DNA of 39,994 nucleotides from Chromatiaceae bacterium (GTDB taxonomy: Bacteria; Pseudomonadota; Gammaproteobacteria; Chromatiales; Chromatiaceae): contig JACDZG010000062.1 of NCBI GenBank assembly GCA_013426805.1, positions 1 through 39,994 on the forward strand. Direction: 5' to 3'. Positions within the stretch are counted from its first letter, which is position 1, and each line of letters begins with the position of its first letter. Under the pieces are notes generated by a model. That model saw only the letters and a list, made by a program, of their open reading frames with translations, was not told where the DNA came from and searched no databases. Positions 5,298 through 34,427 of this stretch are shown here, piece after piece. The position numbers and the translations under genes are program-made.

Positions 5298-5465
5298 TGT
5301 AGGATGACTCCGTGGTCGTAGGGATCGGTTCAGGCGTGCTGTCGGCACCATCGAAAACGGCACGTGCGCGGCTGGCGCCACCCGCCGCAGCCTCAGAGGT
5401 TAGCATGGTGAAATCCCATGACACAAGCGTGTGTTTAGCGAGCGCGTAGGATGCGGTGAGGACCC

Positions 5466-19962: not shown

Positions 19963-20053
19963 GGGGTGATCTCCTCAACGGTGTTCCTATCAATATGACA
20001 CACACTGTCAGGACAGACAAGCCGGGTGATCTCGGATGACTTCAGCCTTGGCC

Positions 20054-20686
20054 TTACCCCTGATCCGCGACACCCGCCGCCCGCCGCTGCCACACCAGTG
20101 TCCGGTTGTTGACCGGCATCGGGTGATCGGCGATCAGGTCCAGGCCCGCCTGATCCGCCAAACGCCGCAGATCGTCCAGATCCCGTACCCCCATACGCTG
20201 GTCCCGCGCCCGCAGCGCCGCGTCGAAGCGCGCATTGCTCGCGCTGGTATGGCGCCCGCCGTCACTGAAAGGGCCATAGAGGGCGAACAGCGCCCCCGGG
20301 GCCAGCAGCCGGCCCACCCCGCGAAACATCAAGGCCACTTCCGGCTCCCCCATGATATGCGCGGTATTGGCGCTGAACACCCCGTCCACCGGACCCGGCG
20401 GCCAGTCGCCGGTCACATCCAGGCGCAGCGGGTCCGGCAGATTGGGCAGTTGCGCCTCCGCCAGCCATAACCGGATCCCCGGCAGATGGGCCGCAACATC
20501 GCTGGTCTGCCAGGTCACCTGCGGCAACCGGGCGGCGAAATAGACCGCGTGCTGACCGGTGCCGCTGCCGATCTCCAGCACCCGGCGCGCCTGGGCGAAC
20601 AGCGGCGCGATCACCGCAAAGATCGGCGCCTGGTTCTCGACGCAGGACTCGGCGAAGGGTTTGTGGGGAAAGCGATGATGGGTCAT
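20054..20686 (-). CDS. DUF938 SAM-dependent methyltransferase
   Basis: A 210-residue protein starting at ATG 20686 (MTHHRFPHKPFAESCVENQA). It has the class I methyltransferase fold with VLEIGSGTGQHAVYFA as the SAM-binding GxGxG motif, then DVAAHLPGIRLWL, FSANTAHIMGEPEV (a DUF938 hallmark), LLAPGALFALYGPFS and a C-terminal strand MPVNNRTLVWQR. The frame stays open upstream to 20968, but that part is built from palindromic repeats, so the internal ATG is preferred. The substrate is unknown. It stands alone between tacA and a repeat array. Confidence 0.88.
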   Translation of the reverse strand: MTHHRFPHKPFAESCVENQAPIFAVIAPLFAQARRVLEIGSGTGQHAVYFAARLPQVTWQTSDVAAHLPGIRLWLAEAQLPNLPDPLRLDVTGDWPPGPVDGVFSANTAHIMGEPEVALMFRGVGRLLAPGALFALYGPFSDGGRHTSASNARFDAALRARDQRMGVRDLDDLRRLADQAGLDLIADHPMPVNNRTLVWQRRAAGVADQG

Positions 20687-20741
20687 TGGTGCTTGTCGTT
20701 TCCGTGGTTGTCGTAATCGAAATGATGATACCCGCGAGGCG

Positions 20742-20899
20742 GTTCGGTCCGCATAGCGGACCCGACGAGGCCGCGACCCGTAGGGTCCGCTATGCGGACC
20801 AGCAGCCTCGCTGTCGATGAGTTCGGTCCGCATAGCGGACCCGACGAGGGCGCGATCCGTAGGGTCCGCTGTGCGGACCAGCAGCCTCGCTGTCGATGA
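20742..20899. repeat. Two tandem 79-bp units with GGTCCGCATAGCGGACC palindromes
   Basis: Two direct copies (20742-20820 and 20821-20899). Each contains the perfect palindromic core GGTCCGCATAGCGGACC and a second, reversed core (GGTCCGCTATGCGGACC or the GTG variant), separated by GACGAGGCCGCGACCCGTAG or a close variant. The same cores appear inside the FGE gene at 26.9-27.1 kb. A REP/BIME-like organisation; non-coding here. Confidence 0.85.
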
Positions 20900-20937
20900 G
20901 ATGGCCGGGAGCACGATCAAGGCCGTAAAGTATGTAC

Positions 20938-21010
20938 GGCATGTAGGGGCGACTTCAGTCGCCCCCACCCGTCGCTAAACCCTTTCCCCAAAATCACCTT
21001 CAGTTCGCAA
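20938..21010 (-). repeat. Partial copy of the interspersed composite repeat (hairpin end)
   Basis: GTAGGGGCGACTTCAGTCG, then CCCCCACCCGTCGCTAAA and AAAATCACCTTCAG, correspond to the hairpin end and flank of the repeat at 8950-9020. It lies just upstream of the phosphoesterase gene. Confidence 0.6.
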
Positions 21011-21028
21011 CCCACGCGGAGCCCACCC

Positions 21029-22232
21029 ATGAACACGCCGGTCCGACTCCTGCACCTGTCCGACGTGCATTTCCGCGCACGGGCGCACTGGGATGCGGAC
21101 CCGGTCCTGCGGGCACTGGTCCGCTACCTTGCCGAGGAGGTGCGCAACGGCTTGGCGCCGGACCTGGTGGTCATCACCGGCGACCTCGCATTCGCCGGCC
21201 GCCCGGACGAGTACACACTGGCGCGGGCCTGGCTGGAGGATCTCTGGCCCGTCCTCACCACGGACCCGGCCGCGCCGCTCCCCCAGGACCGCCTGCTCCT
21301 CGTCCCCGGCAACCACGACGTGGACCGCGACCGCATCGACGCCGTCGCCCGCATGGTCCAGCACTGGACTGCTCACCGGGCAGGATCAGAACCAGATCGC
21401 CGCCGTGCTTGACAGTCCCGACCAGCGCGGCACCCTGCTGAAGCGCCATGCGGCCTATCTGGAGTTCTACGCCGCTTGGCTCGGTCTCCCCCAACCCCTG
21501 CCCTGGTGGCAGCGCGTCATCGACATCCGCGGCCGGCGTCTGCACATCGCCGGGCTGGATTCCGCCTGGATGGCCCACGGCGATACCGACCGCGGGCGTC
21601 TGCTCCTCGGCCGCTACCAGATCCACCAGACCGTGCTGCACCCGGATGGCGATGAGGCCGACTGGCGGCTGGCCCTGCTGCATCACCCCTGGGACTACCT
21701 GGCGGAACTCGACACCCGGTCGGCGCCGCAGGCCATTCATCTGCGAAGTGATCTGGTGCTGCGCGGCCACCTGCACGAGCCGGACGCCTACCGCATCGCA
21801 CCCCCGGACCCCAAACGTGCCTGTCTGGAGTTGGCCGCGGGCAGCGTCTACGCCGGCAGCCCCTACCCGAATGCCTTCCAGTGGCTCGAACTCCATTCCA
21901 ACCCCAAGTGCGTGCGTATCCTCTTCCGCGCCTGGATCGAGGGTGAATGGAAGAAAGACCGTAACCGGCCTGGCGACGATGACGGCGACGGGGCAGTGGA
22001 TGTCCCCCTGAACCAGCCGCCGACCGCGAACACCGCAACCCGGTCCGCCGGCGCGCCCGAGGTTCCCGCCGCCTATCTCGACTGGCTGCGCCGCCAGTAT
22101 GAATCGATCGAACTCCTGGGTCTGGAGGCCCAGGCGCAACACCCCACCCAACTGTCTGACAAATGCAGCAGGCGGATGGGCTGGGGCATGGCGGTATTCG
22201 GCGTCCGGTGCAGGGTGTCCCGCGTCTGGTAG
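21029..22232 (+). pseudogene. Calcineurin-like metallophosphoesterase, frameshifted and 3'-truncated
   Basis: Starts at ATG 21029 (MNTPVRLLHLSDVHFRA). Metal-binding motifs run in order: LSDVHF, VITGDLAF, VPGNHDVDRDR. The frame shifts near 21360 and resumes with TGQDQNQIAAVLDSP; then IAGLDSAWM, ALLHHPWDYL and LRGHLHEP complete the active site. The end (AAYLDWLRRQYESIELLGLE) is the linker that in many STAND/NACHT conflict proteins leads into the NTPase. Here it stops after HPTQLSD and runs into foreign sequence to 22232. Either a frameshift mutation or a sequencing error disables the first break; the 3' truncation is independent. Likely a remnant of a defence-type phosphoesterase-NTPase protein. 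Confidence 0.75.
22154..22189 (-). pseudogene. Stub of a second phosphoesterase start, inverted
   Basis: On the minus strand ATG 22189 opens MPQPIRLLHLSD, nearly the same 12 residues that begin the phosphoesterase at 21029 (NTPVRLLHLSD). It then breaks exactly where the plus-strand gene also breaks (GTCTGAC at 22153-22159). Two oppositely oriented copies therefore seem to have been joined here with loss of everything between. Confidence 0.5.
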
Positions 22233-22410
22233 AGCCCAAGCGTAGCCGCCGACAGGGCCGCTCGGCAAGCGCGGCGCCCGGTCGCGGATGGACGGGGTGG
22301 CCCCGGCCCCAACTGGAGGCCGAGGCTTTAGCCGGTGGCCCCCGTTCGAGGCAAGACACCGCCCGTCGGGAATCCTGAAGGAACACCAGCCACCCCGGAC
22401 GAGAACTGTC

Positions 22411-22512
22411 CCCCGTGGGAGCGGCGTCCCGCCGCGATGCGGTGCCGCGGTGACATCAAACGCTGCGTTGACACGCCCGCCCCCATCGCGGCGGGACGCC
22501 GCTCCCACGGGG
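22411..22512. repeat. Inverted repeat with 28-bp perfect arms
   Basis: Arms 22411-22438 (beginning CCCCGTGGGAGCGGCG) and 22485-22512 are exact reverse complements over 28 bp, separated by 46 bp. REP-pair-like. The rest of 22233-22588 shows no gene. Confidence 0.85.
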
Positions 22513-22588
22513 TCGCTGCGCGACTTTCACGGTAAAGCCTCGACTTCCGGCTTTCTTGTGGCCGGGACTACGATCACGGTCTCTTTGG

Positions 22589-23579
22589 TTAATCGACGAT
22601 GTCATCGATCGTGTCGGCGCTGAGCACCCGCTCGGACCACACGAGCAGGGTATCGGCATCGGCGTCATTGATGCGCTGTTGGACCTCGGGTGACGGGGGG
22701 CCGAACTTGAGGGTGAGTAGCCGCAGCAGGACTCGGGCTTCGCCGCGTTGCTCGCCGCGTTGCTCGCCGATTTGCACGCCGATTTGCACGCCGCGTTCTT
22801 CGGCCATGCGTTCGATGCTCATGACATAGGACATTTTCTGTTGCTCCTCGAGTGCGATCAGTTCGCCGCGCAGTTCATGTTCAAGGGCCGGGGGCAGCCG
22901 CAGCATCCAGTCGATGAAACGCAGCAAGGCCAGGATGTCGTCGCGTCCATAACCGGATTCATAGAGCAGCCAGATGATCTCGCGTTTGCTGGCCTTGCGC
23001 TCAGGGTCGGAGGAGCGGCGATGAGCCGCCAGTTGGGCCAGCGCCACGACGGCAAAGGGATTGGTTGCCACCCGTGCCTTGATGAGCGCCAACTGGTCTG
23101 CCCACTGCTGGAGATGATGGACCCGGTAACAAAAGCGCACCCCAAAGCCGTCGCGTTCGCGGGCATAGACGCCGTGAGACGCGCATTCGCGTTGGTTGGT
23201 GATCACCGCCAGCCCGTAGGATGCGGTGAGGAACGAACCGCATCGCAGGTCGCGCGGTCGGTGATGCGGTTCGTGCCTCACCGCATCCTACGGCCGACGC
23301 GTCGGCTTTACCCTGCACTTCGATGTGGATCAGCAGCCACAGTTCCTGCCCCTCGCGGCTGCGCACCCGCACCAGCCGATCGGCCCGGCGTTGGCCGAGC
23401 GCGGCGTCGCCGGTGATCTTCTGGAGTTCCGCATCGAGAAATTCGTAGGGTTGGTCCCAGGCGATGAGCGTGTGGACGTCGGCAAAGAACAGTTGCATGA
23501 AGGGTTGAAAGTAGGCGCCGATCGCCTCTTTCCACGGCGAGTCGTCGTCGGGCTTCGGGGTGTCGGCGGGGTCGCTCAT
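22589..23579 (-). pseudogene. Rpn-family (PD-(D/E)XK, DUF4351) recombination-promoting nuclease, split by a REP pair
   Basis: The 5' part (ATG 23579 to about 23300) reads PWKEAIGAYFQPFMQLFFAD and FLDAELQKITGDAALGQRRA, then LWLLIHIEVQGKAD, the Rpn nuclease core (D..E-x-Q). At 23293-23215 a REP pair interrupts it, and reading resumes in another frame with LAVITNQRECASHGVYARER. The 3' part ends with VQIGVQIGEQRGEQRGEARV, LTLKFGPPSPEVQQRI and LVWSERVLSADTIDDI, the DUF4351 tail. About 20-25 residues of the usual YNYRxxxRY region are missing at the junction. Members promote recA-independent recombination and are common in high-copy families; this one looks inactivated. Confidence 0.85.
23215..23293. 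repeat. REP pair inside the Rpn-family gene
   Basis: CGTAGGATGCGGTGAGGAAC (23215) and its inverted partner CACCGCATCCTACGG (ending 23293) bracket ACCGCATCG and GTGATGCGGT. The same unit occurs singly at 23691-23724 and as one arm at 5447. A typical RAYT-mobilised REP/BIME; a truncated RAYT lies at 8172. Confidence 0.8.
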
Positions 23580-23690
23580 GGGCGGAGTATGGACTGATCG
23601 AGTGAGGCAGGGGTGACCAGGGGCCGATCACCTTTCCGGCCACAGCGGTGGCGGCGGGATTGTTGGTCCGCGCCGCGGTTGTCCGGTTGG

Positions 23691-23724
23691 GTGATGCGGT
23701 TCGGGTACTCACCGCATCCTACGG
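23691..23724. repeat. REP palindrome
   Basis: GTGATGCGGTTCGGGTACTC followed by ACCGCATCCTACGG forms an imperfect stem-loop of the same family as 23215-23293. The 23580-23892 stretch otherwise contains no credible gene; it is the downstream flank of the DGR template. Confidence 0.75.
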
Positions 23725-23892
23725 GAAGGGCTGCCGGTCGAGTTGCCCCGCGGCGGTCTTCGCTTGCGCTACCGGACGCCGGGGGCTGGGCCTTTTTGTC
23801 CGGCGCAGGCCGGCGCGGGCATGACGGGGCTGGACAGACCTGATGCACAGAGGCGCAATCCGTGAACGGCGCCCGACGGGCGGTGATCGGTA

Positions 23893-24015
23893 CTCGAAAG
23901 GCGAAAGCCGAGGTTGTTGTTGCGGTTGGACGGCGCGTTCCTGTTGCGGTACGCCGCACGGCAGTTGTCGGCGGTGTTGTTCCAGGCGCCGCCCCGCATA
24001 ACCCGGTTGGAGCCC
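23893..24015 (-). other. DGR template repeat (TR)
   Basis: A 123-bp non-coding template, 8 bp beyond the stop of the reverse transcriptase gene. In the coding sense it would read [18 protein letters not shown] and then [19 protein letters not shown], with ten AAC codons, the adenine-rich design of DGR templates. It aligns without gaps to the two variable regions at 25767-25889 and 26787-26909. All differences lie at TR adenines (about 18 and 15 by eye). The invariant 3' end (CCTCGGCTTTCGCCTTTCG) is the candidate IMH*; the next base after CGAG is T in the TR but G in both VRs. The RT uses TR RNA to make mutagenised cDNA. Confidence 0.96.
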
Positions 24016-24023
24016 CTGTCCCG

Positions 24024-25037
24024 TCAGCCATCGACAATACTAGCCGCGGCGACCCGGCGCCGCAACCCGAGCGAATCGGCCTGCGCCACATGGGCGAATA
24101 AGCTCGCGGCACGGTGGCACAGGTCCGGCGTGTCCAGGATGCCGTCCGCATGCGCCTGCTCGAGCACCCGGACCTGGTGCAGAAAGCGCCGGCGGGTCCG
24201 CGGGTTCAGGCGGATCAACCCCGGATAAATCCGGAACCCGAGAAACGGGATGCCCGCGGTCACCGGGGCGACCAGCGTCACCGCCTCTTTGAGGACGAGC
24301 CCCAGACGTTGCGCCAGCACGGTGCGAAGCTCCGCGAGCCATTGATGCAGGGTCGCCTTGTCGTCGGCAAACAACAGCATATCGTCCATATAGCGCAGGT
24401 AGCCCCTGACCCCCAACCGGTCCTTGAAGTGATGATCCAGTTCACCCAGGTAGAGGTTGGCAAAGTGCTGGCTGGTCAGATTGCCGATCGGCAGACCGCG
24501 GCCCGGGTCCGCATCCGGCGGGGCATGGGCGATGATGCGGTCCAGCAGGGCGAGCAGGGGCGCATCCTTGAACAGCCGGCGCAGCAGGGTCTGCAAGACC
24601 CGATGGTCGACACTCGCAAAAAAGCGGCGCACGTCGCACTTGGCAAAACACGCGGTGCGGCGGGCGAAATGCTGCGCACGGGCGATGGCCGCGTGGGTCC
24701 CTTTGCCCTGACGGCAGGCGTAGCTGTCGAAGATGGCGCGGCGCTCGAAAACGGGCTCCAGCACACCGCAGATCGCGTGGTGGACGACCCGGTCGCGAAA
24801 GGGCGCGGCACAGATGGCACGGCGCTTCGGGTCCTGGACCTCGAAGGTGAAGAAAGCGCCGGGTTGATACCGACCCGTAATCAGCGCTTCTTGCAGCGCG
24901 ATCAGTTCACGTTCGAGATAAAACTCGAAGCGGGCGACCGACGGCCGATCGCGCTTGCCCCGCGCCGCCCGTCGGCTCGCCGCGAGCAGGTTGCCGAAGT
25001 CGGTGATGCGCTCGAACAGCCCGCCGACGCGCTCCAA
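24024..25037 (-). CDS. Diversity-generating retroelement reverse transcriptase
   Basis: A 337-residue reverse transcriptase that copies TR RNA with adenine-specific infidelity. The likely start is TTG 25037, 1 nt after the Avd stop with GGAGGG upstream; it gives the DGR-typical LFERITDFGNLLAASRRA. An ATG at 25091 is an alternative. Domains: RT0-2 (FFTFEVQDPKRRAICAAPFR), motif 3 (FAKCDVRRFFASVDH, about 131-145), motif 4 LPIGNLTSQHFANLYL (183-196; the IGxxxSQ form is diagnostic of DGR RTs rather than QG of group II introns), and the catalytic RYMDDMLLF (215-223). The C-terminal thumb helices are intact, and no maturase or endonuclease domain is present. Family length is normal. Downstream is the TR. 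Confidence 0.96.
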   Translation of the reverse strand: MERVGGLFERITDFGNLLAASRRAARGKRDRPSVARFEFYLERELIALQEALITGRYQPGAFFTFEVQDPKRRAICAAPFRDRVVHHAICGVLEPVFERRAIFDSYACRQGKGTHAAIARAQHFARRTACFAKCDVRRFFASVDHRVLQTLLRRLFKDAPLLALLDRIIAHAPPDADPGRGLPIGNLTSQHFANLYLGELDHHFKDRLGVRGYLRYMDDMLLFADDKATLHQWLAELRTVLAQRLGLVLKEAVTLVAPVTAGIPFLGFRIYPGLIRLNPRTRRRFLHQVRVLEQAHADGILDTPDLCHRAASLFAHVAQADSLGLRRRVAAASIVDG

Positions 25038-25699
25038 GTCAGCCCTCCGCCCGACGCCGGTCCTTGATCCAGCCGCCCACCTCCTTGCCAACGGTGTTCA
25101 CCGCCTTGGCCGCGTGCTCGTAACCCGCGTGCGGCAGGTACTGCAACCGGTGGCACAGGCGCAGCAACACCCGCAGCTTCTCCAGCCGCAGGTTGATGCG
25201 GTAGAGAATCGGCAGCGGCACCGGCGCGGGCGATGATCTCCAGGATCTCGCGGCCGTAGTTCTTGAGCTTGGCGTCGCCGAAACCGTCGATCTGGCCCAG
25301 TTCCGCCAGGGTCGCCGGACGTTTGTTGACCACGTCGGCGAGCTGACGATTGTTGCAGATCACGTAAGACGGGATACCGGCGGCGCGTGCCCGTTCACCG
25401 CGCCAGTCGCGCAGCGTGTTGAACAGGGGCCAGTTGGCCTGCTCGACCAGCGCGCGCCAGGCCTCTTCGCGTTGGCGCTGGCGCGCGTCACCGGCGCCCG
25501 CCGCCGCCGACACCGCCGGTCCGGCCGGTCCGGCCAGACGATAGCAGACCACAAGTGTCAGATAGGCGCGGCCATCCTGGACAAAAAAATGGTCGCGGAC
25601 CGCTTCGACGGCCTTATCGGCAAGAAAATCGCGCACGGGCTCATCGTTGAAGCGCTCCGTGACCGGATCGAAGCCGAGGGTGAACAGTCTGACCAACAT
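24902..25699 (-). CDS. HRDC-domain DGR accessory protein, C-terminus run-on
   Basis: From ATG 25699: MLVRLFTLGFDPVTERFNDE, PVRDFLADKAVEAVRDHFFV and LTLVVCYRLAGP form the N-terminal domain seen in DGR-linked HRDC proteins. Then EEAWRALVEQANWPLFNTLR, DWRGERARAAGIPSYVICNN and RQLADVV..GQIDGFGDAKLKNYG form the HRDC nucleic-acid-binding domain (about 80-155). Homology ends near 25225. Beyond that the frame passes through the Avd and RT genes out of register to 24902 with low-complexity residues, so the natural stop was probably lost in the deletion that removed the Avd N-terminus. HRDC proteins accompany or replace Avd in some DGRs. It lies 57 nt downstream of the target gene. Confidence 0.75.
   Translation of the reverse strand: MLVRLFTLGFDPVTERFNDEPVRDFLADKAVEAVRDHFFVQDGRAYLTLVVCYRLAGPAGPAVSAAAGAGDARQRQREEAWRALVEQANWPLFNTLRDWRGERARAAGIPSYVICNNRQLADVVNKRPATLAELGQIDGFGDAKLKNYGREILEIIARAGAAADSLPHQPAAGEAAGVAAPVPPVAVPAARGLRARGQGGEHRWQGGGRLDQGPASGGGLTWSASAGCSSASPTSATCSRRADGRRGASAIGRRSPASSFISNVN
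25039..25221 (-). pseudogene. avd: C-terminal half of Avd (DGR accessory four-helix bundle)
   Basis: Sixty codons from a possible GTG 25221 read ILYRINLRLEKLRVLLRLCH, then YLPHAGYEHAAKAVNTVGKE and VGGWIKDRR, the third and fourth helices of Avd with its conserved LEKLR and YEHAAK...GGWIK features. Avd normally has about 115-130 residues and forms a pentamer that binds RT and RNA; the N-terminal two helices are absent. Upstream the sequence is the end of the HRDC gene in another frame, which suggests a deletion fused the two genes. The stop is 1 nt from the RT start. A short Avd made from GTG 25221 cannot be excluded. Confidence 0.7.
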
Positions 25700-25756
25700 G
25701 ACCGGTCGGACGCTCAGGCCGCCGTCAGCCAAGAGTAAGAGTGTAAAAGAGTCAAG

Positions 25757-28591
25757 TTATACGGTCCTCGAAAGGCGAAAGCCGAGGCCGCTGTTGCGGC
25801 CGGACGGCGCGCCCCTGACGCGGCACGCCGCACGGCAGTCGCCGGCGGCGTCGCGCCAGGCGCCGCCCCGCATAACCCGGAAGGAGCCCGCGTCAGGGCC
25901 ACTCGGCGCTCTGCTCGCCAGTGGCTGCGCAGTGCTGACGCTCAGTGCAGTATCTCTGCGCCCGATGCCGAGTGCACCGGCAATACGCCGCCATGTGCTC
26001 GGCCGCTGTTGACCACTGCGCTGCGCAGTAGCACTCGCTGCGAGCGCAGTGGCGAGCTGCTGGTAGTAATCCTTTGCATACCAATCCGCACACCACTCCC
26101 AGCAGTTACCGTGCATGTCGTAGAGCCCCCAGTTATTCGCTCGTCGCCCGCCGACCGGGTGGAGCCGACTGTCGGCATTGTCGCTGAACCAGGCATAATC
26201 GCTCAAGCAAGCTGGATCGTCACCGCAGCACCAGCGGGTGGCGGTGCCGGCGCGGCAGGCGTATTCCCATTGGGCCTCGGTGGGCAGCGCATAGCGCTCG
26301 CCGGTCTGGGCGCTGAGCCAAGCGCAGTAGGCGCTTGCATCCTCCCAGGAGACGCCGACCACGGGCAGATCCAGGGCCTCGCGGCTGATGCCGCGATTGG
26401 CGTAAAAATCGTTCTTGCCGGTCTCCAAGTGGTATTCGCTGCCGGTTTCCAGCCATTCCGGCCAATGGGTGTCGCTCGCCTCGCAGAAACGCCGGTACTC
26501 GCCCCAGGTGACCGGGGTGCGCCCGAGCGCGAAGGCCGGGAGCTCGACCGGATGAACCGGCTGCTCGTCGGTATCCCCCTGCGCATCGCCCATCTGAAAG
26601 ACTCCGCCGGGAAGATAGACCATCGCCGGGGCGTCGCCCGCCGCCGCGGCGCCGACTGGATCGGCGCTGTTCAGGTGATCCCGAAAGACCTCGTAGGGGG
26701 CGAAACGGCGCGGTGCGGGCGGTTCAATGATGGGCGCGGGCGGCGCGGCGCCAAGGGTAAAAGGGTAAGAGGAAAGAGGGCCAGTCCTCGAAAGGCGAAA
26801 GCCGAGGAAGTCGAGGCGGTTGGACGGCGCGAACCTGAAGCGGTACGCCGCACGGCAGAGGTCGGCGGGGCTGATCCAGGCGCCGCCCCGCATAACCCGG
26901 TAGGAGCCCGTTGCGGGGCCACTGGGATTCTCACTCGGCGGCGGCTGCGCAGTGTCGGTTACCGCGTAGGGTCCGCTGTGCGGACCGGGCGTCGCGTTCA
27001 CCTCAGGGTCGCTGGTCCGCGTAGCGGACCCTACGCGCTGCTGCGCAGTGTCGGTAGCGGTTACCGCGTAGGGTCCGCTGTGCGGACCGGCCGCCGCGTT
27101 CAGCTCAGGGTCGCCGGTCCGCGCAGCGGACCCTACGCGCACAGCGGAGCCCGCGCTCACAGCGGACCCGCCGGGGTTCGGTTCGTCGTAGCCGGCATAC
27201 CAATCGGCGCACCACTCCCAACAGTTGCCGTGCAGGTCGTGCAGGCCCCAGGCATTGGCGCGCTTGCCGCCGACCGGGCGGGTGCCGTCACCGGCCCGAC
27301 CGCCATACCAGGCATAGTCGCCGAGTTGCCCCGCGTCATCGCCGAAGCAGTAGAGCCCCTCACTGCCGGCCCGGCAGGCAAGCTCCCATTGGGCCTCGGT
27401 CGGCAGCCCGTAACGCTGGCCCGTAGCCTCACCGAGCCACTCGCAATACGCCTTTGCATCCTTCCAACTGATGCAAACCACCGGATGGTCATCGGCCTGT
27501 TTGAAATATGGGTTGCGCCAACTGGCATCCTTCCTCTTGACCCACTCGGTCTTGTCCCAGACATAGGCGCCCTCGCCCGTCTCAGCCTCGGTGCGGTACC
27601 CGCTGGACTCGACAAAGCGCCCGAACTCACCGACCGTAACCGGATACCGGCCGATCGCGTAGTGACTGAGCCGGACCGGATGGGCCGGACGTTCGTTGTC
27701 CCTGCCGACACCCTCCGGGCTGCCCATGCGGAAGATGCCGCCGGGGAGCCAGACCATGGCGGGGCCGGGTTCCGTGCTGCCCGCGATCGGGTCACGAAAT
27801 GGCGTGGGCGCCGTGGGGGGCTCCTCTACAACGGCCGGCGACTCGGTGCTGTCGGGTGGAGCCGGAGTACCTGCACCGGAAAGGTCCGGCACCAGCACGC
27901 CCTCGACCCGGCGCATCGCGCCCGCCGGACCGACCAGGGTCAGGCGTTGCGCGAGCGCGGCCGGGTCGCGCAGCAGGCGCGCGACCTCGGCCGCGTAGTC
28001 CAGCAATTGGGGATGGGCCGCGAGGTTCTCCCGCAGGGCCTCGGTCAGGCGCACCAGGCGAGCCAGCTCGGCCGCGGGGCAGCCGCCGACGCCCGCGCCC
28101 GGCGCGGCGGCGGTCCAGGCCTGGCCGAGGGCGGCGGTGATCTCACGCGCCGCGGTGCCGCGGTGCTTTTCCAGGTAGGCCATGGCCGACCACTGCTCGG
28201 CCTGGAGTTCGGCCGGGCTGAGCCCGGCGCCGCCGCGGCCCAGGTGCCGGCAATAGCGCAGCAGCAGACGGGCCGCCTCGCGCATCCGCGCCGCACCGTC
28301 CGGCGCCGCCGCCAGTTCGGCGATCAGAACGGCGCGCACGTCCTGATCGAGTGCGAACTGTTCATAACCGATCGGCCGGCACAGGTCGGACAGCAGCAGA
28401 TCGGCCTCGCTGATCCAGGGGGCGCCGCCGCAGTCGGATAAAAAGTGCACGCGCAGATAATTCACCAGTTCGGGGGTCAGGATCAGCGGCAAGGCGGCGA
28501 ACCAGGCGAGCCGCCGATGGGGCTCGCCGAAGCGCCGCGCAAAGCGCGCGATGCGCGCCGCCGCCAGGTCAGCGGGCAACACCGCGGTCAT
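25757..28591 (-). CDS. DGR target: helical N-terminal domain plus two FGE-sulfatase (C-type-lectin fold) domains, each with a variable region
   Basis: A 944-residue protein from ATG 28591, overlapping the vWA stop (ATGA). Residues 1-235: helical domain (LTPELVNYLRVHFL, SEADLLLSDLCRPIGYEQFA) common on MoxR/vWA-linked FGE proteins. Residues 278-603: FGE-sulfatase domain 1 ([55 protein letters not shown]). Residues 655-944: domain 2 with the same motifs and [15 protein letters not shown]. Each ends in GFRLSRT with a VR at 561-601 and 904-943. Loops between WCADWY and RVMRGGAW are expanded in both (about 100 and 65 residues). The second catalytic cysteine of true FGEs is not obvious, so binding rather than catalysis is likely. 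Probably the sensor or effector-specificity subunit of the operon. Confidence 0.93.
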   Translation of the reverse strand: MTAVLPADLAAARIARFARRFGEPHRRLAWFAALPLILTPELVNYLRVHFLSDCGGAPWISEADLLLSDLCRPIGYEQFALDQDVRAVLIAELAAAPDGAARMREAARLLLRYCRHLGRGGAGLSPAELQAEQWSAMAYLEKHRGTAAREITAALGQAWTAAAPGAGVGGCPAAELARLVRLTEALRENLAAHPQLLDYAAEVARLLRDPAALAQRLTLVGPAGAMRRVEGVLVPDLSGAGTPAPPDSTESPAVVEEPPTAPTPFRDPIAGSTEPGPAMVWLPGGIFRMGSPEGVGRDNERPAHPVRLSHYAIGRYPVTVGEFGRFVESSGYRTEAETGEGAYVWDKTEWVKRKDASWRNPYFKQADDHPVVCISWKDAKAYCEWLGEATGQRYGLPTEAQWELACRAGSEGLYCFGDDAGQLGDYAWYGGRAGDGTRPVGGKRANAWGLHDLHGNCWEWCADWYAGYDEPNPGGSAVSAGSAVRVGSAARTGDPELNAAAGPHSGPYAVTATDTAQQRVGSATRTSDPEVNATPGPHSGPYAVTDTAQPPPSENPSGPATGSYRVMRGGAWISPADLCRAAYRFRFAPSNRLDFLGFRLSRTGPLSSYPFTLGAAPPAPIIEPPAPRRFAPYEVFRDHLNSADPVGAAAAGDAPAMVYLPGGVFQMGDAQGDTDEQPVHPVELPAFALGRTPVTWGEYRRFCEASDTHWPEWLETGSEYHLETGKNDFYANRGISREALDLPVVGVSWEDASAYCAWLSAQTGERYALPTEAQWEYACRAGTATRWCCGDDPACLSDYAWFSDNADSRLHPVGGRRANNWGLYDMHGNCWEWCADWYAKDYYQQLATALAASATAQRSGQQRPSTWRRIAGALGIGRRDTALSVSTAQPLASRAPSGPDAGSFRVMRGGAWRDAAGDCRAACRVRGAPSGRNSGLGFRLSRTV
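25767..25889 (-). other. DGR variable region VR1 (3' end of target gene)
   Basis: 123 bp aligning gap-free to the TR. By eye 18 differences, all at TR adenines (Asn codons become Arg, Asp, Val, Gly, Ser and Phe). The invariant 3' segment CCTCGGCTTTCGCC...CGAG, followed by GACCG rather than TACCG, is the candidate IMH. The gene stops 8 bp beyond. Confidence 0.96.
26787..26909 (-). other. DGR variable region VR2 (internal, end of FGE domain 1)
   Basis: 123 bp aligning gap-free to the TR, with about 15 differences, all at TR adenines (Asn to Ile, Ser, Leu, Phe, Asp, Tyr). The substitution set is independent of VR1. It is followed by the same invariant IMH-like segment and GAC, but lies inside the gene, ending about 340 codons before the stop. 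Confidence 0.96.
26945..27145 (-). repeat. Palindromic repeat array translated inside FGE domain 1
   Basis: Two tandem units (starting 26945 and 27041, about 96-102 bp) each contain GTAGGGTCCGCTGTGCGGACC-type cores and an inverted GGTCCGCGTAGCGGACC core, the same palindromes as at 20.74-20.90 kb. They are in frame and encode RVGSATRTSDPEVNATPG and PHSGPYAV-like stretches in the loop just before VR2. Confidence 0.85.
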
Positions 28592-29652
28592 CGCCCCGCC
28601 CGGCCGCCCAGACCGCGCAGGGTATCGACGGCGTTGCCGAACCCGTCCGTGGTCATGGGGAACATGGGCACCAGCAGCGCGATCAACTGCGCGGTGGTCC
28701 CCGGCCAGCGTTCCGCGGGCACCGGGTTGAGCCAGGCCAGCGCACCGGTCAGCCGCTTGAGTTCGACCAGAACGCGCGCCGTATCCTGAAAACGCTGCTG
28801 CACGCGGCCCCCGCGGGCAGCACCGGCGTCGCTCACCAGCAGGACACTGGAGCGGGGGGTGCAGTCGGCGAGCAGCCGCGCCAGTTCCAGCGGCCGGGTG
28901 CGGTGCGGGTCCGCGTAGACCAGCGGCGGCGGGACATTCTGAAAATAACCGAGATCGACCTGCCCGAGCCCGGCGGCGACGGCGGTCTGCACCAGGTCGC
29001 GGGTGAGCCGATGAAAGGGGACCATGGACCCGCCCTGATCCACCAACAGGACCAGATGCCCGTGATCGGTGCCGCGGCGCGTCAGGACCGGCCGGTCGAA
29101 ATAGCCCTGGCGGGCGGCCCGCTCCACCGTGGCCGTCAGGTCGAGCTGGTCGCAAGGACCGTCCTTGACCGGCCGGCGCAGATAGCGCCAGGTATAGGCC
29201 ATGGTGCGGCGCGAGACCGGGTCCTGGGTGACCAGCGCGGCCGTCTCGCGGGCCGGCGGCGGCGTCGGCGGGGCCGGCGCGCGCACCGGCAGCGGCATGA
29301 CCACCGGGGCCGGCGCGGGAGACGGCGGCGGCCGGGCGGGCAGCGGCGCGGGCGGCGCGTCGGGCGGCGGCACCGGTGCGGGCGGCGGTTCCGGTGCGGG
29401 TGGCGCGGGGGCCGCGGCCCGCTGCCGTGCCAGCAGGGTATCCGCCTGCCCATCGAGCGCCGCGTTCTCGCTCGGCGACTTGCACCAGAGCAGGCGCAGC
29501 AGGCGCTTGAAGCTGTCGTCATCGGCGCCGGCGCGGCCGGTGTCGAGCGCGCGTCGCGCGGCCAGCAGTTCGGCGAATCCGAGCGGCAGACCGGCCCCGC
29601 GCAGGTGCAGGAACAGGTCGAGCAGAAGATCGGTGCGCGGGTCCGTGGGCAT
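28588..29652 (-). CDS. vWA-domain protein of a MoxR-vWA system
   Basis: A 354-residue protein from ATG 29652. Residues 1-75 are an alpha-helical CoxE-like segment (LFLHLRGAGLPLGFAELLAA, FKRLLRLLWCKSPSENAA), 80-135 a Pro/Ala-rich linker, and 140-354 a von Willebrand A domain. The MIDAS start LVLLVDQGGSMVPFHRLT has DxGxS in place of the usual DxSxS, and VLLVSDAGAARGG supplies the later acidic loop. In MoxR-vWA pairs the vWA protein bridges the AAA+ ATPase and the client. Here the client is presumably the translationally coupled FGE-domain protein (ATGA overlap). MoxR is 33 nt upstream. Confidence 0.9.
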   Translation of the reverse strand: MPTDPRTDLLLDLFLHLRGAGLPLGFAELLAARRALDTGRAGADDDSFKRLLRLLWCKSPSENAALDGQADTLLARQRAAAPAPPAPEPPPAPVPPPDAPPAPLPARPPPSPAPAPVVMPLPVRAPAPPTPPPARETAALVTQDPVSRRTMAYTWRYLRRPVKDGPCDQLDLTATVERAARQGYFDRPVLTRRGTDHGHLVLLVDQGGSMVPFHRLTRDLVQTAVAAGLGQVDLGYFQNVPPPLVYADPHRTRPLELARLLADCTPRSSVLLVSDAGAARGGRVQQRFQDTARVLVELKRLTGALAWLNPVPAERWPGTTAQLIALLVPMFPMTTDGFGNAVDTLRGLGGRAGR

Positions 29653-29685
29653 CGGCGGTTGGATGCGTGGCGTGGGCCGCGGCGC

Positions 29686-30666
29686 TCAGCCGGCGGGGCC
29701 GGCAGCATCGCGCGGCCAGTCCACCCGCTGCTTGAAGAGCAGCTCGGGGAACGGCAGCCGGGTGCCGTCGCGCAGCGCGGCGATCGGTGCCGGATCGGCC
29801 GTGCCGACCCGCCGGCCCCAGGCCCGACCCAGGGCGCGCAGCCAATCCAGGAGCTCACTGGTCCCCGGCGGCTTGAACAGATTGCCCTGCGCGCGCAGCG
29901 CGAGGAAGCGACCCACCGCCAGTTCGATCAGTGCGGGTTCCAAGGTCTCCGCGGCCGGTTGCGGCGACGGCGTGGCCGCCGACCCATGCGCGGCGATGAT
30001 CTCCCGCAGGCGTTCAAGGTCGTTGGGAAATTCGAGATAGCTGTAGATGCAGCGCCGCAGGAAGGGCGCGGGCAGATTGCCCTTCTCCTTGTTGCTGGTG
30101 ATGATGACCAGCGGCGGGTGCAGCGCGCGGATGGGCGGCAGCCGGGCCTCGCGGATGCTGAACGCGCGCGGATCGTCCAGCACGGTCAGCAGGTCGTTGG
30201 GGAAGTCGAGATCGGCCTTGTCGATCTCGTCGATCAGGACCACGGCCGAACACTCGGGAACCTGAAAGGCGCGGCCCAGGGCGCCGAAGGTCACATAGTT
30301 CAGGGGCTGCTCCGGATGGCGCTTGGTGCCGGCACGGCGCCCCGGCAGTTGCGCCAACTGCACGTCATGCAGGCGCAGGATGGCGTCGTAGCTGTAGAGC
30401 CCGTCCTGGGCCTGGCTGGTGGAGCGCACCGGCCAGAAGTAGAAGGGCAGCCCGAGGGTGGCGGCGACATGGCGCGCCAGTTGACTCTTGCCGCTGCCGG
30501 CCTCGCCCTCCAGCAGCAGGGGGCGGTCGAGGTGAATGGCCAGATTGACGGCCTCGATCAGCGCCGCGGAGGCGATGTAGGGAACCGGGTCCGGCGCGTC
30601 GGGGTGGCGTCGCCCGTCAGGCGAACGATGCTCGGCGGGCAGTTCAAAGGGGCAGTCGGTTGTCAT
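29686..30666 (-). CDS. MoxR-family AAA+ ATPase
   Basis: A 326-residue AAA+ ATPase from ATG 30666, with AAGGA 8 nt upstream. Walker A LLEGEAGSGKSQLARHV (about 52-66), pore-region FYFWPVRSTSQAQDGLYSYD, Walker B SAVVLIDEIDKADLDFPND (140-158), sensor 1 LVIITSNKEKGNLP, arginine finger FLRRC, then a C-terminal lid (LKRLREI-like helices). MoxR proteins act as chaperones that remodel or activate partner proteins through a vWA adaptor. It heads the MoxR-vWA-FGE segment, 167 bp downstream of the preceding gene. That gap shows no gene, so an internal promoter there is possible. Confidence 0.94.
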   Translation of the reverse strand: MTTDCPFELPAEHRSPDGRRHPDAPDPVPYIASAALIEAVNLAIHLDRPLLLEGEAGSGKSQLARHVAATLGLPFYFWPVRSTSQAQDGLYSYDAILRLHDVQLAQLPGRRAGTKRHPEQPLNYVTFGALGRAFQVPECSAVVLIDEIDKADLDFPNDLLTVLDDPRAFSIREARLPPIRALHPPLVIITSNKEKGNLPAPFLRRCIYSYLEFPNDLERLREIIAAHGSAATPSPQPAAETLEPALIELAVGRFLALRAQGNLFKPPGTSELLDWLRALGRAWGRRVGTADPAPIAALRDGTRLPFPELLFKQRVDWPRDAAGPAG

Positions 30667-30833
30667 GGCTCAGATCCTTCAGGTGGGCGGGGTGCCGGTG
30701 GTGACACCGTTCCAACCTTTCTGCGACCGCGCTGCTGCCGGCCGGGTTTCCGCTCGACGGGTGTTGCGGGTGCCGAGCGGTCGGACTGACGCCCGATTCA
30801 CAGTTGTCTGCGGTCACACTGGTGATCATCCGA

Positions 30834-31859
30834 TCAGAGCGCGGCGCAGCGATGCAGCAGTTCATGTGGGATCCTCATCGGGTCACCTTGCGTCACATCC
30901 AGGATGGTCCGCGCCAGCAACCGGGTCCGCTCGGGCGGATGTCCCTCAGGCAGACCCCAGCAGGTCAGCCAGTTCAGCACGTCGTTGTAGCTCCAAGTGG
31001 TCAATTCGATCTCCAACAAATGTTCGGGTCGGAAGTCATCGACACGGCAGCAGTCGACCGCGGCCAGCGCTTCGGGGGGCACCGCACCGCCGAACAGCAG
31101 CAAGGCGACCATGGTGACCGTCCCGGGTAATTTCGGCACCGCCAACGCCAGGTCCGCCAGCAACTGACGCCAGAACACGGCGACCATCCAGTGCACGGCA
31201 TCAGGATCATCCAACAGATATTCGCAGCAATCGATCTCAATCAAGACAACGTTCCCGGCCTGCAACGAACGACACAGGGCCGCGGTCACCAGGCTAACTT
31301 GCGCAGGAGCCGGCAGGCCAAGTGTCAGGTCAAGATGCGTGGCAAGACCGCGCAGGACCGCGCTGACGTCGGCTTTGTCAGCCGTGCTGAGCGCGACCGG
31401 GCGATGGCAGAATTTGCCCTGAGCGGTCTCTGCTCGCAGAATTTTTTCGACACATCGTGCGCAAAGGCGGCCATTGCCTTCGCCGGACCGCTGAATCATC
31501 ACCAGAGCCGCGCGAGCGGTATCAAGCTCAGCGTCAAGCAGTGCTCGTATCCACTGCCGCAATTGCTTGAAATCGATGCGGTGCAAATGCTTTTCCAAAA
31601 GCGCGTCGACCCGTGCGGAGTCGCGTCCAGGATCGGATAACCCCGTGCCCTCGGGCAAGGCCAACTCGAGTTTCGCAATCTGCTCCTCGATCTTTTCCAT
31701 CCGGGCGCCGATCTGATCGGCTTGTTGCTCAGCCTTTTTCTGGATAACGGCATCAGCCGTGATGGACGCCTGGGTCAGTGCGGCTTCGTACTGTGGCGCC
31801 AATGATTCCAGGTACTTTTCGAGCGCTTCACGCCGCCTCGCGCGACTGTCCATGATCAC
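30834..31859 (-). CDS. Protein with coiled N-terminal module and inactive-STAND-like domain
   Basis: A 341-residue protein starting at GTG 31859, overlapping the CHAT stop by 4 nt (an ATG at 31853 is an alternative). Residues 15-70 are a coiled segment (QYEAALTQASITADAVIQKK, AEQQADQIGARMEKIEEQ) strikingly like the last 45 residues of the upstream CHAT protein. Residues 90-130 are helical with LEKHLHRIDFKQLRQWI. Residues 200-341 resemble a P-loop-less STAND module: GNVVLIEIDCCEYLLDDPDA, VHWMVAVFWRQLLADLALAV, GTVTMVALLLFGGAVP, followed by winged-helix-like helices. No Walker A is present. Probably an adaptor that docks the CHAT effector; the inactive-STAND assignment is tentative. Confidence 0.7.
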   Translation of the reverse strand: MIMDSRARRREALEKYLESLAPQYEAALTQASITADAVIQKKAEQQADQIGARMEKIEEQIAKLELALPEGTGLSDPGRDSARVDALLEKHLHRIDFKQLRQWIRALLDAELDTARAALVMIQRSGEGNGRLCARCVEKILRAETAQGKFCHRPVALSTADKADVSAVLRGLATHLDLTLGLPAPAQVSLVTAALCRSLQAGNVVLIEIDCCEYLLDDPDAVHWMVAVFWRQLLADLALAVPKLPGTVTMVALLLFGGAVPPEALAAVDCCRVDDFRPEHLLEIELTTWSYNDVLNWLTCWGLPEGHPPERTRLLARTILDVTQGDPMRIPHELLHRCAAL

Positions 31860-33337
31860 CGCCCGTCCCCCCGATTCCTTTTCAATGCGTGTTCCAATCG
31901 CTGCATGTCACGCTGGACCTTGTCGGCCTGTTGCTGCGCCTTGACCTGAATTACCGCGTCAACCGCGGTAACACTTTGATTGAGTGCCGCGTCATACTGC
32001 GCCTGAAGCAGCGCCAGCAACGGATGGGGCGGGTCGGCCGGAGGGTCTTCGTCCTCCATCTGCAACAGCCGCCCGCCGTCGCCCTGGCTTGACCGCAGAT
32101 AGAGCACCGGCCGGTACCACTCATCCGGAAACCGCGGTTTCATCCTGAGCTGGACCTGATGCAGCGACTCGACCAGCGACAGGCCGGCACCCAGGGCCGC
32201 GTAGAGATAGTCGGCGAAGGCCTCGGCCGCCTTGGTCTCCAGCGGGAAGGGCGAGGCGATGACGGCCGGGACCAGGTCCATCAGCCGCTGCGCCAGACCG
32301 TTGAACACATCCTCGCCGCGCCGCCCGGTCGCGGACTTACAGGCATTGAGCACGACCAGACGCAGATCGCCGGCGAGTTTGAGGGTGTCACTCACGCCGT
32401 CGATACCGACCCAATCGGGCCGGCCGGTGGCGGGGTCGGTCAAGGCCAGCAGACCCTCGGGTGCGCCGTGGCGCCGGAAGCCGCAGTCGGCCCGGCCGCA
32501 GGGGGTGTCGTCCAGACCATGCGAGATGCCGCGGCACTGTTCACAACGCCAGCCGAAATCGCCGTGCCCGGCGAAGTGCAGGATGGTGGGGGTCGCGCCC
32601 AAGGCGAGCAGGGCTTTCTGGAGACCGTCGAGGCTCGCCGGGTCGAGGGCTTGGATCGGCATCCGGCCGGCACCGGCGGTGTCGGCAAGACCGGCGGCGA
32701 TGCGGGCGTGGTCCTGAAGCGCAAGCCGGGGCAAATCCGGCGGATCGCTGTGCAGGACCAGGACCTGCAGCCGGGGGGCGGGCGGCGGAAGTCCGGACGC
32801 GTGTTCGTAGAGAATGTAGCGGCCGACCAGCAGGTCGCCCTGGGGCAGTCGGTGACCGTGCAGCAGTTCCCAGGGCAGGCGGAACAGCGTCAAGTCGGTG
32901 GGCCATAGCTCCAGACGCAGATAGACCAACGGGCGCTTGCGCACCGCGCCGGCGCCTTGCGCGGCAAACAGCGCCTTGATCCGGGCAGCGAGTGGATCGA
33001 GCAGCAGTTGCACCAACCAGCCCTGAACCTGCGCGCGCAGGCGTTCACGGTGGAGGTCTTGCCCGCTCAAGGTCGCGGGGCCGGGGGTGGCTGACGGATG
33101 CCGCAACAGGCCCCAGACCCCGAGACGCGCGATCTCCGGCGCGGTGAAGTCGTACCGCAGATCGGGGCTCTGATTCAGATCGAGGGCGCGCTCGCAGAGT
33201 GCGAGATCGTCCGCGGTGAACGGCAGCGGGAGCGGACCCGCCCTGCCCTCGCCGCCGTCCGGCAAGCGGAAGCGCAGGCCGAGCGCCCGGCCGGTGGCAT
33301 CCAGTTCGAGCGTGATCGCCAGCACCGACGCGTCCAT
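31856..33337 (-). CDS. CHAT-domain (caspase-like) protease with inserted zinc ribbon
   Basis: A 493-residue protein from ATG 33337. Residues 1-185 form an N-terminal all-beta/alpha domain with PLVYLRLELWPTDLTLFRLP. Residues 190-420 are the CHAT caspase-like peptidase: TILHFAGHGDF carries the catalytic His (about 258) and LVVLNACKSATG the nucleophile Cys (about 333), with VIASPFPLETKAAEAF and YRPVLYLRSSQGDG following as in the family. Between them a CxxC...CxxxxC insert (Cys 265, 268, 280, 285) looks like a zinc ribbon. Residues 440-485 are a coiled module repeated at the start of the next protein. Such CHATs act as suicide effectors in bacterial conflict systems. Confidence 0.92.
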   Translation of the reverse strand: MDASVLAITLELDATGRALGLRFRLPDGGEGRAGPLPLPFTADDLALCERALDLNQSPDLRYDFTAPEIARLGVWGLLRHPSATPGPATLSGQDLHRERLRAQVQGWLVQLLLDPLAARIKALFAAQGAGAVRKRPLVYLRLELWPTDLTLFRLPWELLHGHRLPQGDLLVGRYILYEHASGLPPPAPRLQVLVLHSDPPDLPRLALQDHARIAAGLADTAGAGRMPIQALDPASLDGLQKALLALGATPTILHFAGHGDFGWRCEQCRGISHGLDDTPCGRADCGFRRHGAPEGLLALTDPATGRPDWVGIDGVSDTLKLAGDLRLVVLNACKSATGRRGEDVFNGLAQRLMDLVPAVIASPFPLETKAAEAFADYLYAALGAGLSLVESLHQVQLRMKPRFPDEWYRPVLYLRSSQGDGGRLLQMEDEDPPADPPHPLLALLQAQYDAALNQSVTAVDAVIQVKAQQQADKVQRDMQRLEHALKRNRGDGR

Positions 33338-33674: not shown

Positions 33675-33782
33675 GGTGCTCGGGTGCCCGTGGCGGATCG
33701 ACTTCTCCCGCGCCGAGACGACGTTGATGTCGTCCAGGGGCAGGGCGATTTCGATGAGCTTCTTGGGGGCTTTGATGTTCAA
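33675..33782 (-). pseudogene. Stub of a DUF1156 (adenine-specific methylase-like) gene
   Basis: From TTG 33782, which overlaps the rloB stop (TTGA), the minus strand reads [20 protein letters not shown] and [10 protein letters not shown], the conserved N-terminus of DUF1156 proteins found in anti-phage islands. The next expected motif (WWARRPLAAARAV) is absent; the sequence turns into a REP-like hairpin at 33658 and the frame closes at 33465. Only about 36 of the usual 900 or so codons remain. Confidence 0.75.
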
Positions 33783-34426
33783 GCGGGGTCCTTTAGATGC
33801 TGAAGGTAATGGACCAGATCATGGACCTCGGTCGATGGGTTATCCTCTCCAGTCGCCTGCACGTCCTGCCGGGCTCGTCGGGCGTTCTGCTTGGCGGTAT
33901 CGAGACGGTCCAACAGTCGACCGAACAGCCCGGTTGTACCCTTTTGGTAGTCGTCCATGGAGTCTGCTTGTTTCAGGGCTTTGATGCAGTTGTCGCATGC
34001 GCTGTTGTTGCCGCTCTCGGTAAATGGACTGCGGGTATATCCAAAATGGAGCAGCAGCCAATACTCGAAACAGGGCCAGGAGCGGGCAGCGCGTAGAGCC
34101 GACCGGTCGATCTTATCGCAGGCGGCCTGGAAATTATGGTGCCGATCCCGGTCGAAGACGCAATAGATCCGATCGTAATGCTCGCCATCCTTCTTTTCTT
34201 TCGCTTGAAGCTTCTGTGCGGTATGTACGATGGACAACGGATCAGTCCCGCTCGCCCGTGTCACGGCGATGTTGGCGTTGCTGAGCTTGTAATGGTCTTG
34301 CAGCTCGGAGAAGTAGATTGGCTCGGTCTTCTCACCCTCGCAGACGATCAATACGCGATCATAAGGTTCGCGCTGTGGCCCCCGGCGCTTCAGACCAGCG
34401 GCTTGTCTTGGTTGGCGTACTGACAT
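33779..34426 (-). CDS. rloB: RloB-family TOPRIM-like protein
   Basis: A 215-residue protein; ATG 34426 lies 1 nt beyond the rloA stop. The RloB pattern is clear: [20 protein letters not shown] (TOPRIM-like strand with the catalytic Glu), then [32 protein letters not shown] (the DxD motif), [13 protein letters not shown], and a helical C-terminal half. Homologues (RloB, AbiLii) act as nuclease effectors beside an RloA/AbiLi ATPase in abortive phage defence. The family and ATPase pairing are seen; the anti-phage role is inferred. The frame is intact, with a 4-nt overlap to a DUF1156 stub downstream. Confidence 0.88.
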
Positions 34427-34427
34427 G

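Follow-up and report, generated by a model that had tools for sequence, protein, structure and literature searches.

A diversity-generating retroelement with two variable repeats in one gene of a predicted iSTAND-type conflict system, and a candidate target-recognition array beside its variable repeats

Diversity-generating retroelements (DGRs) with several variable repeats (VRs) in a single gene of the FGE type are already in print (PMC3521204, PMC6642488, PMC10907252). Several VRs share one open reading frame (ORF) in 31 of the 271 multi-VR DGRs of PMC6642488, and in Marichromatium purpuratum 984 three VRs lie in one 3366-bp FGE ORF (DiGReF, PMC3521204; PMC10907252), although the authors of PMC3521204 were undecided as to whether this ORF was an artefact. 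Here, we describe a DGR with two VRs in one ORF from a 39,994-nucleotide stretch of DNA (the window) of a Chromatiaceae bacterium (assembly GCA_013426805.1, contig JACDZG010000062.1, positions 1 to 39,994 of the forward strand), which by its sequence is a further case for the reality of multi-VR ORFs. Its closest known relative is the M. purpuratum 984 element, which we infer to be the system found in a genome labelled G034, where the target ORF read from a TTG start is likewise 3366 bp, as PMC3521204 gives. Because that system is so close, the cassette in the window belongs to a described kind, and since multi-VR FGE genes had been published the bare observation is less surprising than it was first taken to be.

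The G034 locus holds the same system as the window without CHAT, its parts being 39–79 percent identical (target N-terminal domain 61, vWA 60, MoxR-like ATPase 63, iSTAND 39, HRDC 62, reverse transcriptase (RT) 72). It shares the order HRDC, RT, template repeat (TR) and a 3′ array of the same kind, but has three VRs rather than two, a full-length Avd, and a trypsin-TIR protein where the window has CHAT. PMC10907252 places the M. purpuratum locus among VMAP systems, whereas the third component in G034 is iSTAND according to Pfam (24.8 bits against a cut-off of 24). DGR 4/5 of Thiohalocapsa sp. PB-PSB1 (PMC10907252) is similar in having tandem VR-bearing FGE-type domains in a MoxR-vWA target, and both that genome and our host contain several DGRs and repeats resembling miniature inverted-repeat transposable elements (MITEs). 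It belongs, however, to VMAP systems with the vWA inside the target, whereas the window has iSTAND as third component and vWA as a separate gene; the VMAP form occurs elsewhere in the host, at C126. The phage element BPP-1 shares with the window adenine-specific transfer from TR to VR and a hairpin 3′ of the TR with a CTACGG loop. It differs in having a GAAA-loop hairpin starting 5 nt after the VR and no significant array, where the window has an array and no hairpin; the window also has HRDC and a truncated Avd. Finally, the TvpA DGR of Treponema denticola (PMC4891356) combines, as here, an FGE-type target with an HRDC accessory gene; its targets are predicted lipoproteins, and the term Avd does not occur in the available text of that paper.

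Our preferred reading, to which we assign a probability of about 0.8, is that the DGR in the window, carried by a phototrophic bacterium, diversifies tandem FGE domains (of the C-type-lectin type) in the sensor protein of a MoxR-vWA conflict system of the iSTAND type. Photosynthetic reaction-centre genes are present in the host genome. The chief new point is an array of short repeats beside the VRs, a statistical pattern for which we propose a role.

Adenine-only variation in a gene with tandem FGE domains

All parts of the cassette lie on the minus strand. TR1 (23893..24015; 123 bp, 26 adenines) aligns without gaps over 123 bp with the terminal repeat VR1 (25767..25889) and the internal repeat VR2 (26787..26909), differing from them at 18 and 15 positions; the first-pass annotation had given these coordinates and, by eye, these counts, and both were exact on recount. 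It had also placed every difference at an adenine of the coding-strand TR. This held for 33 of 33 (18/18 and 15/15), the differing TR positions reading as T on the plus strand and hence as A on the coding minus strand. Substitutions at other bases, which the annotation had regarded as fatal to its claim, were looked for in a three-way comparison of TR, VR1 and VR2, and there were 0 at the 97 non-A positions of the TR. The hypergeometric probability that every difference would hit A by chance is 9e-16 for VR1 and 1e-12 for VR2. When window positions 20001–32000 were scanned for repeats 60 bp or longer that differ at five or more sites, all at one chosen TR base, the A-only scan returned just the two TR/VR pairs and the C-only and G-only scans returned none, while the T-only matches were the same two pairs read from the opposite strand. 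Repeat identity ends sharply, with 34–51 of 120 positions identical (ungapped) in the nearest 120 bp outside. The signature had been called complete, which is right for the mutation pattern but not for the machinery, in which Avd is truncated.

All 26 TR adenines fall on the first or second position of codons in the target frame, changes at A cannot turn any TR codon into a stop, and the 15 variable codons make some 3.3e14 proteins reachable. A to G exchanges account for 14 of the 18 changes in VR1 versus 2 of 15 in VR2 (Fisher p 4e-4), where ten are A to T; strongly differing exchange patterns among the VRs of a single DGR have been described (PMC3521204). VR1 and VR2 agree at 97 of 97 non-A sites, while the FGE domains outside the VRs match at 103 of 192, as repeated copying from a single TR predicts.

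The RT gene (24024..25037, minus strand; 337 aa from a TTG start, in a frame open up to 25091) carries both the IGNLTSQ and YMDD motifs that had been read beside the TR. Its best relative of solved structure is 8ub7 (E 8e-53), which we take to be the BPP-1 RT, with a group IIC RT at only 3e-17. A tree was built by a quick method, with SH-aLRT values only, from 96 DGR-like RTs together with two others from the host genome which, from their motifs, we assume to be group II-like; retron RTs were not part of the set and two short rows were omitted. The 96 separate from the two at an SH-aLRT of 100 percent, so that a grouping with group II RTs, which the annotation had named as a refuting outcome, was not observed; within this set the window RT falls among DGR RTs, as a sister to that of C259 in its own genome (100) and next to that of a Desulfobulbaceae metagenome-assembled genome (95). 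Together, the adenine-only TR/VR pairs, the DGR-type RT, the FGE-type target and the HRDC accessory gene bear out the identification as a DGR.

Both VRs lie inside one open frame; the annotation had mentioned neither this nor the placement of the whole cassette on the minus strand. This target gene (25757..28591, minus strand; 944 aa) begins with an N-terminal domain of about 260 aa that has no Pfam match at E 0.01 and, within the order, occurs in 6 of 210 genomes, the host included. Two FGE-sulfatase domains follow, each ending in a VR: VR2 closes the first (residues 561–602) and VR1 the second (901–942 of 944). The target matches 2y3c, variable protein 1 of T. denticola. Catalytic formylglycine-generating enzymes possess two active-site cysteines; aligned to 2aft, the target matches one, and the position of the second presumably coincides with one of the codons that the DGR varies (S in VR2, D in VR1).

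Reading along the minus strand, the gene order is CHAT, EAD9-iSTAND, MoxR-like AAA+, vWA, target, HRDC, Avd remnant, RT and TR. The CHAT protease-like protein (31856..33337) has CHAT as its sole Pfam domain above cut-off and, by eye, an EAD9-like C-terminal stretch; a relative (L166) combines CHAT with an EAD9 below its cut-off. It is followed by the EAD9-iSTAND protein (30834..31859), the AAA+ ATPase (29686..30666), called MoxR-like from its setting, and the CoxE-type vWA protein (28588..29652), all on the minus strand. The constituents of an iSTAND MoxR-vWA ternary system as defined by Kaur et al. (2020; PMC7159879), namely MoxR, a CoxE-type vWA and iSTAND with an N-terminal EAD, are all present, AAA_5, VWA_CoxE, EAD9 and iSTAND scoring above their Pfam cut-offs. 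Of the 10 window proteins that were scanned, none matched VMAP-C at E 0.01. Kaur et al. linked DGRs to VMAP systems and reported that some 22 percent of iSTAND systems contain FGE-type domains. Assignment of a DGR-diversified conflict system to the predicted iSTAND type is new here, and the locus would exemplify DGR diversification of such a system.

A repeat array on the 3′ side of variable repeats

Both VRs, but not the TR, are followed on their 3′ side by a pyrimidine-rich tract of degenerate direct repeats with a period of roughly 8 nt. After VR1 (25727..25766, minus strand) nearly all of it lies past the stop codon and is non-coding, and after VR2 (26747..26786, minus strand) a similar tract is coding (TGPLSSYPFTLG). 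The family to which these repeats belong was sampled at 32 places, with VRs taken from matches at E 1e-8; four are TRs, and two were dropped (a TR remnant in C126 and a misregistered match in G107). Past the shared end, its VRs continue with GACTGG... or GACCGTATAG... and then a tract of the kind CACTCTTACCCTTTTACCCTTGG with small variations, whereas the TR flanks have a different sequence that is partly common among TRs. The motif TTACMCT occurs within 45 nt of the VR in 26 of 26 cases and in 0 of 4 TR flanks (one belonging to a TR fragment), against a background of 0.007 per 45 nt.

Ten of these VRs, four of them from the host genome, are terminal, and here the tract lies mostly past the stop codon (located by eye). 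Their mean pairwise identity in 15-nt windows is 0.79–0.90 for windows that start at +1 to +26, 0.66 for a start at +31 and 0.30–0.44 for starts from +36. After the sixteen internal VRs the tract lies in coding DNA and uses many T-ending codons, such that G or C occupies the third codon position in 90 of 192 codons versus 1200 of 1600 upstream (Fisher p 7e-15, with codons not independent). As the tract is kept past stop codons and third-position composition is shifted in its coding copies, we regard it as constrained at the level of DNA. It has been argued that VRs occupy C-termini, probably because cis elements can then be intergenic (PMC8144416); in the window family, internal VRs bear the tract within coding DNA.

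To look beyond this family, 97 DGR loci were scanned, of which 79 contained A-only pairs (126 in total, with 14 C-only and 14 G-only pairs in the same scan; T was not run). The array test was applied to the 60 loci whose pairs were 90 bp or longer, scoring repeats at lags of 6–9 in the 50 nt after the first VR of each locus against shuffles (significant at p <0.05). An array was found after the VR in 26 of 38 loci with Avd only, 7 of 13 with both HRDC and Avd, and 1 of 9 with HRDC only; for the TR flanks the counts were 2 of 38, 0 and 0. Avd-bearing cellular loci, the window included, thus show an array after the VR in 33 of 51 and after the TR in 2 of 51. As controls, the 5′ flanks of VRs were significant in 1 of 58 cases, and 50-nt stretches following other frames of these loci, each 250 codons or longer, in 27 of 300. 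Identical scoring of those viral loci whose pairs reached 80 bp or more (58 of 80) gave 36 of 58 after the VR and 3 of 58 after the TR. Among 62 Avd-bearing VRs the best period is 8 in 32 and 7 in 18, and array-bearing loci span 11 phyla named in record titles, with units that by eye differ (CCCTTTTA type, TTTCTGA type). The signal survived the thinning of similar flanks: at 0.6 identity arrays remained in 22 of 39 cellular cases and in 17 of 32 viral ones, and at 0.5 identity in 11 of 24 and 10 of 21. The contrast between Avd-bearing and HRDC-only loci (33/51 versus 1/9, p 0.007) depends for the most part on a single RT clade.

On the VR side, the element described in the literature is a GRNA-loop hairpin (PMC3240598). 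No stem of at least 7 bp (loop 3–6) was found within 90 nt 3′ of VR1 or VR2 by a search that detected the BPP-1 positive control, nor beside any of the 11 VRs of the family that were examined, VR1 and VR2 included. In the same 90-nt span, hairpins follow the VR in 35 of 58 viral loci (30 with a GRNA loop) and 10 of 38 Avd-only loci (one GRNA), as against 0 of 13 with HRDC and Avd and 1 of 8 with HRDC only. Of the 58 viral loci, 23 have both an array and a hairpin. Just past the array, at +35 to +54, is where 33 of the 35 viral hairpins begin. The idea that cellular and viral VR flanks lack hairpins had been rejected on widening the span from 50 to 90 nt (Avd-only from 1/38 to 10/38, viral from 2/58 to 35/58). 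A candidate hairpin inside the VR end was dropped because, by eye, it is not conserved in TR2.

The TR 3′ flank (23803..23892, minus strand), which is partly conserved with those of C259 and G034, contains the hairpin GGGCGC[CGTTCACGGATT]GCGCCT at 23851–23874. TR-side hairpins with a loop of the Y-YAYGG type are present in 21 of 60 flanks (12 Avd-only, nine HRDC and Avd, 0 HRDC-only) and also in BPP-1; among VR flanks 1 of 60 has one, and shuffles gave 1.9 on average and at most 4. These hairpins are in line with the BPP-1 spacer, which recruits RT-Avd and primes cDNA (PMC12875486), and the TR 3′ flank in the window is probably its counterpart. Rfam gave just two matches on window 23500–26000, both far below gathering scores.

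Taking these patterns together, we propose that the VR-side array is a homing-target element. More specifically, and at slightly less than even odds, about four degenerate 7–8-nt units directly 3′ of the VR would form a second element of target recognition that is general among Avd-bearing DGRs and is read by RT-Avd with or without HRDC. The array would usually precede the GRNA hairpin in viral DGRs, stand without a hairpin in cellular DGRs with HRDC and Avd, the one in the window among them, and be mostly absent from HRDC-only DGRs; one gene could carry internal VRs because the array can be written into coding DNA, and HRDC would permit Avd to be lost. No description of direct repeats 3′ of VRs was found in the available parts of the literature searched (PMC3240598, PMC5006420, PMC8144416, PMC7517822, PMC8867640, PMC12875486, PMC6642488); subscription literature was largely outside this search, so an earlier mention is possible.

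The mechanism we envisage is that TR RNA is reverse transcribed with errors at A, and that the resulting cDNA would replace the VR sequence adjoining the array, which would mark the recipient (VR) as distinct from the donor (TR). HRDC, or Avd supplied in trans from the C259 locus, may substitute for the truncated Avd. The variable lectin faces would then bind ligands, and the MoxR, vWA, iSTAND and CHAT proteins might pass the signal on to a proteolytic response. How a DGR recognises recipient versus donor is known in detail for one phage element, via a hairpin that is absent from the window family. A gene with tandem VRs is a natural experiment in this respect: the tract follows both an internal VR, where it is coding, and a terminal one, so that its function as DNA can be told apart from a function in the protein. 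Should the tract be a homing signal, the targets of DGRs, including remote ones, could be predicted genome-wide and DGRs could be directed to internal sites of genes.

Accessory genes and related loci

The HRDC accessory gene (24902..25699, minus strand; ATG start) scores above its Pfam cut-off. Its HRDC-like part ends near 25232, and beyond this point its frame continues through the Avd remnant in a frame other than that of Avd. The remnant (25039..25221, minus strand; GTG start) covers only positions 57–105 of the 107 in the bAvd profile, below the Pfam cut-off, and relative to C259 and G034 it is without the N-terminal half, a loss of roughly 200 bp. The C259 paralogue, with an RT 81 percent identical to that of the window, has HRDC and a full-length Avd (profile positions 9–106 of 107). 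As read from the sequence, this cassette has lost half of its Avd yet keeps HRDC; a truncated Avd next to an open HRDC gene is, like the iSTAND assignment, new here. An accessory survey took in 98 loci (six of this genome, 12 of its genus and 80 named loci with the closest RTs among the matches listed; a first scan with a single RT query gave no match, and an alignment-based scan at least 80 loci). Avd alone is found in 62, both genes in 21, HRDC alone in 12 and neither in three; the notion that loci with both genes are rare intermediates was rejected on the count of 21 of 98. Avd is damaged in 4 of the 21 loci with both genes and 0 of the 62 with Avd only (p 0.003), but the contrast weakens to 2 of 21 versus 0 of 62 (p 0.06) when only the window deletion and an insertion in L066 are counted, because the frameshifts in L064 and L119 may be assembly errors.

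The 7.6-Mb host genome contains six RT loci with A-only TR/VR pairs of their own (the window, C259, C198, C139, C152 and C311). Two further contigs hold VRs with no RT beside them in the stretches taken: C126, where a single VMAP-system target carries three VRs (VMAP-C present), and C71. The VR at C71:1370 differs from the C259 TR at 12 positions, all at A and at no other site, which suggests that the C259 TR probably serves it in trans. The VRs at 339, 1383 and 2256 of C126 (L012) and at 326 of C71 (L013) show three to four non-A differences from the best of three 123-nt TRs, pointing to one or two further TRs that either were lost or are not in the assembly; a remnant resembling a TR lies at C126:163-210. 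Elsewhere, G011 has iSTAND, ATPase, vWA and target as in the window, and the gene run is matched in G007 as well. What comes closest to a sibling comparison is a VR from a different species of the genus, G002 (L164 2916-3038), which lies next to a CHAT gene and has 15 A differences and one non-A difference from the window TR; this genome had no related RT match at E 1e-20. In G005 (vWA 97 and N-domain 87 percent identical), the target is interrupted inside a palindromic repeat before VR2. In the window this MITE-like repeat, CGTAGGGTCCGCTNNGCGGACC, stands at 26963-27139 as two copies (26963-27037 and 27065-27139, minus strand) read in frame before VR2, and occurs again at 20742-20879. It is present at 145 places in the host genome and, in seven further genomes of the genus, at 9 to 332 places, while a reversed control gave 0; related copies lie 77–292 nt upstream of several other internal VRs.

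Competing explanations and neighbouring features

Several points weigh against our interpretation. Present-day activity of the cassette is a prediction from sequence, and its machinery is incomplete, with an Avd without its N-terminal half where BPP-1 requires Avd (PMC12875486). The sensor role of the target rests on published proposals, and an AlphaFold2 model of the whole target and two orthologues, bearing on exposure of the variable residues, reached a pLDDT of only 33.7 and was not used. For the array, the lag range was picked after the window family had been seen, scoring being fixed beforehand for the viral set only; 18 of the 51 Avd-bearing cellular loci and 22 of the 58 viral ones have no significant array, as is true of BPP-1 (p 0.13).

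The strongest competitor, which we consider less likely than not but a serious contender, is a cassette that was active until recently and is now dying, the Avd deletion having ended homing and left the VRs as frozen copies. The short Avd remnant, the full-length Avd of the relatives C259 and G034, and the decay of other loci of the genus through loss of RT or VR, as in G002 and G005, are all in keeping with this. Conversely, the RT and HRDC frames are open, neither VR1 nor VR2 has a non-A change, nine HRDC-only loci with A-only TR/VR pairs exist, and the Avd genes that score above the Pfam cut-off at C259, C152 and C198 could act in trans.

It is unlikely, in our view, that the 3′ tract has no role in homing and is instead common by descent, serving as a linker in the protein after VR2 and in transcription or at the mRNA level after VR1. 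Internal tracts do encode a conserved TGP(L/W)xxxPxTL linker, and the family loci are related by duplication, with the host genome contributing four of ten terminal VRs. Against this, the identity after terminal VRs stays high in 15-nt windows starting at +1 to +26 although the tract is mostly past the stop; the internal copies cannot be terminators because they are located in coding DNA, and hairpins are missing from all 11 family flanks tested; and other phyla have other units with a period of 7–8 nt. More doubtful still is a target that is a surface or adhesion protein rather than a conflict-system sensor. The FGE-type DGR targets of T. denticola, being predicted lipoproteins (PMC4891356), offer a precedent, but the target here belongs to a run of CHAT, EAD9-iSTAND, MoxR-like ATPase and vWA genes that is matched in G034, G011 and G007, and an AbiL-like pair adjoins this run. 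Ordinary duplication or gene conversion followed by mutation and selection, for which the paralogy of the two FGE domains might speak, is already ruled out by base specificity, with 33 of 33 changes at A, negative base controls and an RT and TR alongside.

The AbiL-like pair lies just upstream of the CHAT gene, with AbiLii at 33779-34438 and the AbiLi ATPase at 34428-35687, giving the region the appearance of a defence neighbourhood. On the other side of the cassette, an apparently frame-broken gene at 21029-22232 has a metallophosphoesterase domain at 21029-21412 and, by eye, a likely continuation in another frame. Farther away, the minus strand at 4554-5381 encodes about a dozen repeats of a RAQV(Q/R)ELG(S/G)-type unit, as counted by eye.

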